Source: an uncultured Bacilli bacterium
GTDB taxonomy: Bacteria > Bacillota_I > Bacilli_A > RF39 > UBA660
Direction: 5' to 3'
DNA length: 35,085 bases
NCBI GenBank assembly: GCA_944363605.1
Contig: CALVUM010000075.1
Location: 1-35,085, forward strand
Shown: positions 33,206 through 35,085 of the stretch, one piece after another
How the letters are laid out: every line of letters starts with the position of its first letter
How positions within the stretch are numbered: the stretch's first letter is position 1
Program-made: the position numbers and the translations under genes
The notes under the pieces: generated by a model
What the model was told of the DNA's origin: nothing
What the model saw: the letters and a program-made list of their open reading frames with translations, nothing else
Databases searched by the model: none

Positions 33206-33447
33206 ATGAAATTACATTTGAAAAAGCATTACAAGATTTAGAAAGCATTATTAAAGATTTAGAAAGTGGGAGTATTCCATTAGAAGAAGCTATTAACAAA
33301 TATACAGATGCGATGAATTTAGTGAAAATTTGTCAGGAAAAATTAGATAAAGCAACTAAGCAAGTCAATAAAGTTTTAAGCGAAAACGATGAATTAAAAG
33401 ATTTTGAATTAGAAAGCAAGGAAAATGGCAATGAGCAAATTAGTTAA
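33202..33447 (+). CDS. xseB: Exodeoxyribonuclease VII small subunit
   Basis: XseB coats the coiled coils of XseA. The 81-residue helical protein has the family motif FEKALQDLESIIKDLESG followed by PLEEAINKY and a CQEKLDKA helix. AAAGGAG stands before the ATG, which overlaps the xseA stop. Its end overlaps the proS reading frame. Confidence 0.95.
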   Translation: MNEITFEKALQDLESIIKDLESGSIPLEEAINKYTDAMNLVKICQEKLDKATKQVNKVLSENDELKDFELESKENGNEQIS

Positions 33448-34852
33448 TAAAATTACAGATCGCGATATAGATTTTGCAAAATGGTATACCGATGTTGTAA
33501 AAGAAGCAGATTTAGTAGCGTATTCATCCGTTAAAGGAAGCATGATTATTAGACCTTATGGTTATGCTATTTGGGAGAATATCCAAAAAATATTAGATAA
33601 AGAATTCAAAAAAACAGGACACGAAAATGTTCAAATGCCTATGTTTATCCCAGAATCTTTATTAAATGTCGAAAAAGAACATGTTGAAGGCTTTGCACCT
33701 GAAGTGGCATGGGTTACACATGGTGGTAACGATCAATTAGAAGAAAGAATGTGTGTAAGACCAACAAGTGAAGTGTTATTTTGCGAGCATTATAAAAACA
33801 TTATTAAATCTTACCGTGATTTGCCAAAATTATATAATCAATGGTGTACGATCGTTCGTTGGGAAAAAACAACACGGCCATTTTTAAGAAGTCGTGAAAT
33901 TCTTTGGCAAGAAGGACACACAATGCATAAAACAAGCGAAGATGCTCGTGAAGAAACTTTAAGGATGCTAAAAGTATATGAAGATTTTCAAAGAAATGTT
34001 TTAGCTTTACCAGTTCTAGTTGGCAGAAAAACAGAAAAAGAAAAATTTGCAGGAGCTGAAGAAACATATACCTTAGAAGCAATGATGTATGATGGAGTTG
34101 CTTTGCAAAACGGAACAAGCCATTACTTTGGGAATCATTTTGCAAAAGCTTTTGGAATTCAATTTTTAGATGAAAATAATACATTACAAGCACCTTATCA
34201 AACAAGCTGGGGATCATCAACACGTATGATTGGTGGGATAATTATGACTCATGGAGATAATCATGGTCTAGTTCTCCCTCCCAAAATCGCACCGATCAAA
34301 ATTGTTTTTATTCCAATCACTCAAGAAGAAAGTATTCTAAGTGTTATTGATGAAATTACTAAAAAGCTTCCAGAAGAATATACCTATAAAATCGATACTT
34401 CAGACAAGTCTCCAGGATACAAATTTGCCGAAGCAGAAGTAAAAGGAATTCCTATTCGTGTGGAAATTGGTAAAAAAGATTTAGAAAATAATGAAGCAAC
34501 GGTCGTGCGAAGAGATACCTTAGAAAAAAACAAAATTAGTTTAAATGAAATTGTAGACTATTTACCAAAACTTTTAGAGAACATCCAAAGCGATATGTAT
34601 GAAAGAGCATTGAAAAGAAGAAATGAAAAGATTTTTGATGTAAAGTCCTACGAAGAAATGAAAAATCTAATTAAAGAAAAAACAGGGTTTGTAAAAGTTA
34701 ATTGGTGTGGTAAAACAGAATGCGAAGAACAAATTAAAAATGATACTGGATATAAAAGTCGTTGTATTATCGAAAATGAGAATCCAACTGGAAAATGCAT
34801 TATTTGTGGTAATGAAGCAACTTGTAGAATCTATGTGGGCAAACAATATTAA
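33425..34852 (+). CDS. proS: Prolyl-tRNA synthetase, archaeal/eukaryotic type
   Basis: ProRS charges tRNA-Pro. At about 475 residues, with no editing insertion and with a C-terminal zinc-binding domain (Cys-rich CGKTECEE and CIICGNEATC), this is the ProS type 3 (archaeal/eukaryotic-like) form found in some Bacillota. Class II motif 2 (RWEKTTRPFLRSREILWQEG) and motif 3 (SWGSSTRMIGGIIMTHGD) are intact. Two in-frame ATGs, 33425 and 33431, are possible; AAGGA at 33417-33421 favours 33431. It overlaps xseB by about 20 bases. Confidence 0.95.
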   Translation: MAMSKLVNKITDRDIDFAKWYTDVVKEADLVAYSSVKGSMIIRPYGYAIWENIQKILDKEFKKTGHENVQMPMFIPESLLNVEKEHVEGFAPEVAWVTHGGNDQLEERMCVRPTSEVLFCEHYKNIIKSYRDLPKLYNQWCTIVRWEKTTRPFLRSREILWQEGHTMHKTSEDAREETLRMLKVYEDFQRNVLALPVLVGRKTEKEKFAGAEETYTLEAMMYDGVALQNGTSHYFGNHFAKAFGIQFLDENNTLQAPYQTSWGSSTRMIGGIIMTHGDNHGLVLPPKIAPIKIVFIPITQEESILSVIDEITKKLPEEYTYKIDTSDKSPGYKFAEAEVKGIPIRVEIGKKDLENNEATVVRRDTLEKNKISLNEIVDYLPKLLENIQSDMYERALKRRNEKIFDVKSYEEMKNLIKEKTGFVKVNWCGKTECEEQIKNDTGYKSRCIIENENPTGKCIICGNEATCRIYVGKQY

Positions 34853-34880: not shown

Positions 34881-34911
34881 AAAATGAGTCTTTAAAAAAG
34901 ATTCATTTTTT
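34881..34911 (+). terminator. Terminator after proS
   Basis: AAAATGAGTCTT (34881-34892) pairs with AAGATTCATTTT (34898-34909) with one G-U pair, then T to 34911. A TATACT follows at 34914-34919 and can serve as -10 for the last gene. Confidence 0.85.
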
Positions 34912-34946
34912 GGTATACTTTAGATACTAAAGGAGAAATGAAAATA

Positions 34947-35085
34947 ATGAAAAAAAATCGTATTATTTTAGGAATTCTCCTCACCAGCCTAATTGTTCTG
35001 GGGGGGGGGTTATTTGAATAAAACACCAATACCAGAACAAAGAAAAACAAATGAAAATATCGAATTAGCTATTTATTTAGAAGAT
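34947..35085 (+). CDS. Exported protein with poly-G frameshift (3' end beyond window)
   Basis: After AAAGGAG, in-frame ATGs at 34938 and 34947 open a signal or anchor sequence (KKNRIILGILLTSLIVLGGG). The frame then meets a run of ten G (35000-35009) and stops at 35019-35021 after 24 codons. If one G is removed the frame continues without a stop to the window end (YLNKTPIPEQRKTNENIEL and on), with composition like a normal exported protein. So the gene as given is off. This may be a phase-variable gene or an assembly error. The product is unknown; only about 45 residues can be seen. Confidence 0.6.
35000..35009 (+). repeat. Homopolymer of ten G
   Basis: Ten consecutive G in very AT-rich sequence, inside the signal-peptide coding part of the last gene. 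No other G or C run of similar length is seen in the window. Nine G would restore the frame. Confidence 0.9.

Follow-up and report, generated by a model that had tools for sequence, protein, structure and literature searches.

A tract of ten G residues in the 5′ region of a gene for a predicted surface protein of an uncultured Bacilli bacterium very probably makes this gene a phase-variable locus of the simple-sequence contingency type, judging from its sequence. The tract lies close to the 3′ end of the window, i.e., the whole stretch of 35,085 nucleotides that was analyzed, which is the entire contig C75 of a genome of 1,521,064 bases in 88 contigs (completeness estimate, 69.5%). The earlier note on this DNA had proposed a likely phase-variable locus, and this reading is supported by about 21 tracts in the genome, by paralogues with G9, G10 and G11, by one pair of loci that differ in the tract only, and by intact downstream ORFs. 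Beyond what that note had claimed, the results point to a family-wide system, a second architecture in which the tract is a promoter spacer, and an expanded set of genes for LamG-containing and other surface proteins.

The G10 tract and the gene that carries it

In the 35-kb window, G occurs 3901 times as a single residue, and in 755 runs of two, 111 of three, 13 of four and 4 of five; the only longer run is the one of ten, and runs of C reach a maximum length of 4. The G8 pattern matched at 3 overlapping positions, as compared with 0.06 in dinucleotide shuffles, and from the decay of run lengths we could estimate that ∼0.0006 runs of at least ten G are expected in a sequence of this size. The tract occupies codons 18-21 of an ORF for a predicted exported protein, and hence a homopolymer of at least 8 residues is placed at the 5′ end of the ORF, as in contingency loci. 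When translated from the ATG at 34947 (a second ATG is present in frame at 34938), the G10 version reads MKKNRIILGILLTSLIVLGGGLFE and then stops. The G9 version is open up to base 35085, and the G11 version stops after 23 codons. These results uphold the earlier note, which had described the run as highly unusual for this sequence, as located within the first 25 codons, as out of frame in the assembly and as open to the end of the window with nine G. The contig ends 76 bases 3′ of the tract, and 25 codons of the gene are visible after the G10. The features of the region, together with those discussed below for other contigs, are collected in Table 1.

Table 1. Positions of the features in the window and at related loci
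Feature	Position	Strand	Remark
proS, proline--tRNA ligase by sequence	33425..34852	+	upstream neighbour, outside the switch
Probable intrinsic terminator of proS, AATGAGTCTTT-AAAA-AAGATTCATTTTTT	34883..34911	+	read from sequence
Probable -10 box TATACT	34914..34919	+	inferred from sequence
Probable Shine-Dalgarno sequence AAGGAG	34930..34935	+	inferred from sequence
5′ end of surface-protein gene, LamG family; signal/anchor peptide MKKNRIILGILLTSLIVLGGG	34947..35085	+	runs past the contig end
G10 tract, proposed slipped-strand switch	35000..35009	+	G9 or G12 open, G10 or G11 closed
TAA closing the frame at G10	35019..35021	+	
Hairpin sites	L013:3853-3880, L030:4028-4055, L105:1035-1062, L134:1027-1054, others		
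Transposon	C5:1-3176 (L012)		ends at C5, C6, C8, C53, C83, C87, C21, C26, C40, C48, C59

According to the proposed mechanism, slipped-strand mispairing during replication would add or remove single Gs in the tract. With G9, the predicted signal/anchor peptide would be in frame with a large exported LamG-containing protein, and the gene would be on; with G12 it would also be on, with one extra glycine in the product. With G10 or G11, translation would end after 23-24 residues and the gene would be off. We infer that tract lengths change within the population, that expression follows tract length, and that the benefit is a variable surface, as a defence against immunity of the host, phage or competitors.

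The segment with the probable proS terminator also precedes other members of the LamG-containing family, and a segment similar to the -10/Shine-Dalgarno region is present at the paralogues of contigs C29, C66, C80 and C81. The proS gene itself is found in nearly all of 37 genomes of the genus, mostly at full length and with 69-90% identity. In the relatives with readable DNA downstream of proS, no tract of at least seven G was found within 700 bp after this gene. Since no tract gene lies behind proS in these relatives, the position of the surface gene is lineage-specific. A comparison of orthologous tracts behind proS was given up, the gene being absent there in relatives with readable downstream DNA.

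Paralogues with different tract lengths and intact reading frames

Six tracts, that of the window included, lie in one family of LamG-containing proteins. Its members share a common 5′ end, ATGAAAAAAAATCGTATTATTTTAGGAATTCTCCTCACCAG..TAATTGTTCT-Gn-TTATTTGAATAAAACACC, which was found with minor differences at C29, C53, C66, C80 and C81 besides C75. The tract is G9 at C29 and C81, G10 at C75 and C66, and G11 at C53 and C80; at C53 a transposon end stands in place of the start codon. The copies at C29 and C80 are equal in 53 of 53 bases upstream and 76 of 76 bases downstream of the tract (129/129), yet the tract is G9 (on) in the former and G11 (off) in the latter. Because these flanks are identical while the tract differs, we conclude that the tract changes faster than its surroundings. 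A further 14 pairs had at most 7 mismatches in 70 flanking bases and unequal tract lengths, a variation that, as with C29 and C80, is between loci and not between cells.

The assembly might have added a base to the homopolymer in the window, such that the real tract is G9 and the gene is on; the tract would then be genuine and the off state would not. We consider this a minor but appreciable possibility, because one-base consensus errors can occur in homopolymers and G9 copies do exist at C29 and C81. Such an error, however, leaves unexplained the presence of G9, G10 and G11 among the paralogues, as well as the predominance of out-of-frame G10 among the coding tracts that could be read in several genomes. 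Moreover, it would affect the state of the gene only, and not its interpretation as a switch.

The copy at C29 is complete and in frame (745-748 codons) and contains a Laminin_G_3 domain (PF13385, E 2.2e-18). A profile built from ten members matched the PDB entry of an S-layer domain protein (4qvs, E 3e-8) over the LamG domain. Long stretches are conserved among the members, with most of the divergence in the LamG region and in the last ∼100 residues. An AlphaFold model of the full protein, made with the ten-sequence alignment, had a mean pLDDT of 45.7 and was confident in the LamG part only. The proteins of the LamG family are predicted to be exported or anchored.

Removal of one G opened ORFs of 548, 683, 419, 550, 471 and 471 codons behind the G10 tracts of paralogues and homologues, lengths being given only where the gene is fully visible. 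Taking the coding tracts of this and other genomes of the genus together, ten break a frame that is open one base away, and three tracts in surface genes are in frame. Since open ORFs of 419-683 codons follow the tract, the out-of-frame genes look intact rather than decayed; an intact ORF in the alternative frame, as expected of a contingency locus, is thus seen in the paralogues and homologues, and in the window over the 25 codons visible. It is therefore very improbable that the gene is a decaying pseudogene whose frameshift fell in the homopolymer by chance. That it is out of frame as assembled, on a contig that stops before its remainder, would fit such decay, but the 76 visible bases are open in the G9 frame. 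The earlier note had weighed the case of homologues without a G tract and a dead gene in the window only; the observations do not show this, with paralogues carrying G9, G10 or G11 and intact ORFs.

In other members of the genus, coding tracts were found at unrelated N-termini (MKKRKVL-GGG, MEKKISKKVLW-GG, MKENERLSRGG and MKKFKKVL-GGG). Because the N-terminal sequences around these tracts are unrelated, we conclude that the placement of the tract arose repeatedly.

Tracts in promoters, and mobile elements in the same genome

The 1.52-Mb genome has ∼21 tracts of at least eight G, of which 15 are of at least ten, where ∼1-2 would be expected as estimated from run-length decay. Most of them lie at the start, or in the promoter, of genes for predicted surface proteins, so that both the excess of tracts and the concentration at surface genes seen in contingency loci are present. 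A search for further long G tracts at the 5′ ends of exported genes, which the earlier note had proposed as a check, was thus positive. The ∼20 genomic tracts would switch surface proteins independently of one another and in two modes: an N-terminal frameshift, as in the window gene, and a change of the distance between the -35 and -10 boxes, with the tract abutting the -35 box.

About ten tracts of this genome are intergenic. TTGAC stands directly before the tract, and a box resembling TATAAT, TAAAAT or TACAAT follows it. The pattern TTGACNNG8 had 10 matches in this genome and was found in 23 of the 37 genomes of the genus, with up to 48 copies in one of them; the reversed pattern had no match in any genome. 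A TATAAT-like hexamer is located 3-11 bp behind the tract, with a -10 score of 5.02 against a maximum of 5.01 among 2000 shuffles, a small margin over the best shuffle that was obtained with paralogues, i.e., non-independent loci, among the sequences scored. The calculated spacers between the -35 and -10 boxes are mostly of 18-22, above the canonical 17. Apparently, the intergenic tracts vary promoter spacing. In these sister loci the -35 and -10 boxes flank the tract, as in promoter-spacer homopolymers of the opc/porA type; the window gene belongs to the coding, not to the spacer, type. The spacer-type tracts precede genes for three types of predicted surface protein; exceptions are, among others, L108, with an ABC ATPase, and L111, with a DNA cytosine methyltransferase-like gene. 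At the latter locus (G013:C33:13822-13881), G17 and G10 tracts lie in a tandem duplication of ∼50 bp that includes TTGACAAT, upstream of the methyltransferase-like gene. It is possible that this methyltransferase is phase-variable.

A static role of the poly-G runs, as glycine codons of an anchor helix or as an element of promoter DNA shape, with no contingency function, appears very improbable to us. The coding tract does encode Gly-Gly-Gly where the hydrophobic stretch ends, and the promoter tracts always adjoin the -35 box, as a structural element might. Glycine, however, could be encoded by GGA or GGT in a genome of 29% GC, in which pure runs of 9-13 G are retained; in addition, tract lengths that shift the frame break the ORFs, and different lengths occur within identical flanks. 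Contig breaks beside tracts were dropped as evidence of polymorphism, because repeats and transposon copies explain the breaks at least partly.

At many spacer-type loci, in three genomes, the -10 box is immediately followed by a hairpin of 9 bp that has a GNRA-type loop and is accompanied by a U run. Its energy is -8.6 to -9.1 kcal/mol (z about -5). Among 8 distinct sequences, 4 of the 9 pairs were changed on both sides and 98.6% of the cells were paired, whereas the slid controls all failed. Transcription is expected to begin within the 5′ arm of this structure. At L107 and L137 the 3′ arm resembles a Shine-Dalgarno sequence. The hairpin would stop read-through from upstream, or would hide the ribosome site at L107 and L137, and RNA begun at the switch promoter, being without the 5′ arm, would escape it.

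The same genome carries a transposon with genes for a DUF6431 protein, an rve/Mu_C transposase near IS481 and an AAA ATPase. Pairing of ends gave at least nine copies, and two complete end pairs have 6-bp target duplications (CAAATA and TCTTTA). Five insertions lie 28-35 bp 5′ of a G tract, by the right end at C5, C6, C53 and C83 and by the left end at C40, a proximity that by a rough estimate is far above chance. A gene with an internal G12 (L012:3190-4182 with L041, at the C26 end) is also split by the transposon, the duplication CAAATA joining C26 and C5. Solo sequences resembling transposon ends were observed ∼80 bp upstream of poly-G promoters at L033 (C5:37747) and L038 (C84:11423), in the orientation opposite to that of intact insertions. 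The core machinery of Tn7 inserts beside triplex DNA and does so in a fixed orientation (PMC2886061); by analogy, this suggests a possible mechanism for the insertions near G tracts, which we regard as a lead. We rejected the idea that homing to poly-G is conserved in the transposon, since no G tract was found at its readable ends in eight relatives of the family, nor at its readable right ends in genus relatives.

These insertions also bear on whether the switch could operate by DNA inversion or recombination between common 5′ segments, and not by the tract. A common segment of ∼90 bp is joined to several different tracts in both orientations, as an invertible element would be. That segment is the end of the transposon (TATAGATCTGCA...), located beside the three genes named above. 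It does not correspond to an invertible promoter of the Bacteroides type, and no pair of inverted copies was observed on the two sides of the window gene. Inversion was therefore rejected as the switch, and we regard this explanation as very improbable.

A joint reading would combine a two-layer poly-G phasome across the family (signal-peptide frameshifts and -35 spacer tracts) with hairpins that silence read-through and with tracts preferred by the AAA ATPase transposon. Taken as a whole it is tentative, and we think it unlikely to hold in full.

A diversity-generating retroelement is present at C86 (L058/L060, C86:9419-13084), with a reverse transcriptase carrying an LPIGNMTSQ motif and with template and variable repeats. 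Its Avd matched NF033474 with an E of 6.6e-7, under the curated cut-off of the model. Over 80 bp, the cis target at C86 shows 21 adenine-only mismatches and no others; a trans target with another variable region was found at C83:1237 (L100). None of the tract-bearing paralogues gave a match to the template; the tract family of the window gene thus does not belong among the targets of the retroelement, and the proposal that the hypervariable C-termini of the LamG family are such targets was rejected. The retroelement is unlinked to the window gene.

Distribution among relatives and comparison with known systems

Both the coding and the -35/poly-G layouts were found again at surface genes of four sampled members of the genus. 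Tracts of at least nine G are present in 33 of 35 genus relatives and in few genomes outside the family; those of at least ten G are present in 96 of 243 genomes and 68 of 148 genera of the family. At the level of the class, 11 of 296 genomes had TTGACNNG8, and the family accounts for 8 of these 11 (our own genome counted); outside the family it was found in 3 of about 258 genomes. Genomes with many copies are G284 (36) and G140 (10). When a longer promoter pattern was compared with named genomes, it matched four MAGs only; three are labelled as uncultured Bacilli, of which one is from chicken, and the fourth as an uncultured Tenericutes.

In open-access full-text literature we found no description of poly-G contingency loci in these gut Bacilli. 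The slipped-strand contingency principle is already known; the lineage and the scale are new as far as we found in open-access papers. If our interpretation is correct, a family of animal-gut bacteria with small genomes, known only from MAGs, varies its surface by the hypermutation principle of Neisseria, Campylobacter and Helicobacter, and a genome of 1-1.5 Mb may carry as many as dozens of switches. The strain-level heterogeneity of the surface could then be read straight from existing metagenome reads, and annotation pipelines would label many such genes as pseudogenes.

Poly-G contingency loci are textbook examples in Neisseria, Campylobacter and Helicobacter. In Neisseria, they include coding loci such as the gonococcal lgt genes (as cited in PMC5084427), and simple-sequence contingency loci are described in C. 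jejuni (PMC8437040). As in those genera, the window gene, which is surface-related, has a G homopolymer in its 5′ region, the frame follows the length of the homopolymer, and there are many loci per small genome, a likeness that we draw from sequence. The genes switched in Neisseria and Campylobacter code for glycosyltransferases or outer-membrane proteins, whereas here they code for exported proteins of the LamG type; the hosts here are uncultured Bacilli MAGs, one labelled chicken, and the tract, unlike theirs, lies inside the signal/anchor peptide.

Promoter-spacer homopolymers are represented by porA (van der Ende 1995) and opc (Sarkari 1994) of N. meningitidis, both as cited in PMC5084427. 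In the sister loci, as in porA and opc, the tract lies between the -35 and -10 boxes and every slip would alter the spacing. The sister loci differ in that the tract abuts the -35 box, in that up to 48 promoters occur in one genome, and in that many have a conserved terminator-like hairpin over the expected transcription start.

Known tract systems of mycoplasmas are based on poly-A or triplet repeats, in contrast to the poly-G found here. Among the surface lipoproteins of Mycoplasma, the Vlp of M. hyorhinis and the Vpma of M. agalactiae are referenced in PMC11868660, and in that paper Vpma switching is attributed to site-specific recombination. The mycoplasmas resemble the present case in having an expanded set of paralogous surface proteins, switched independently (as is proposed here), in a small AT-rich genome.
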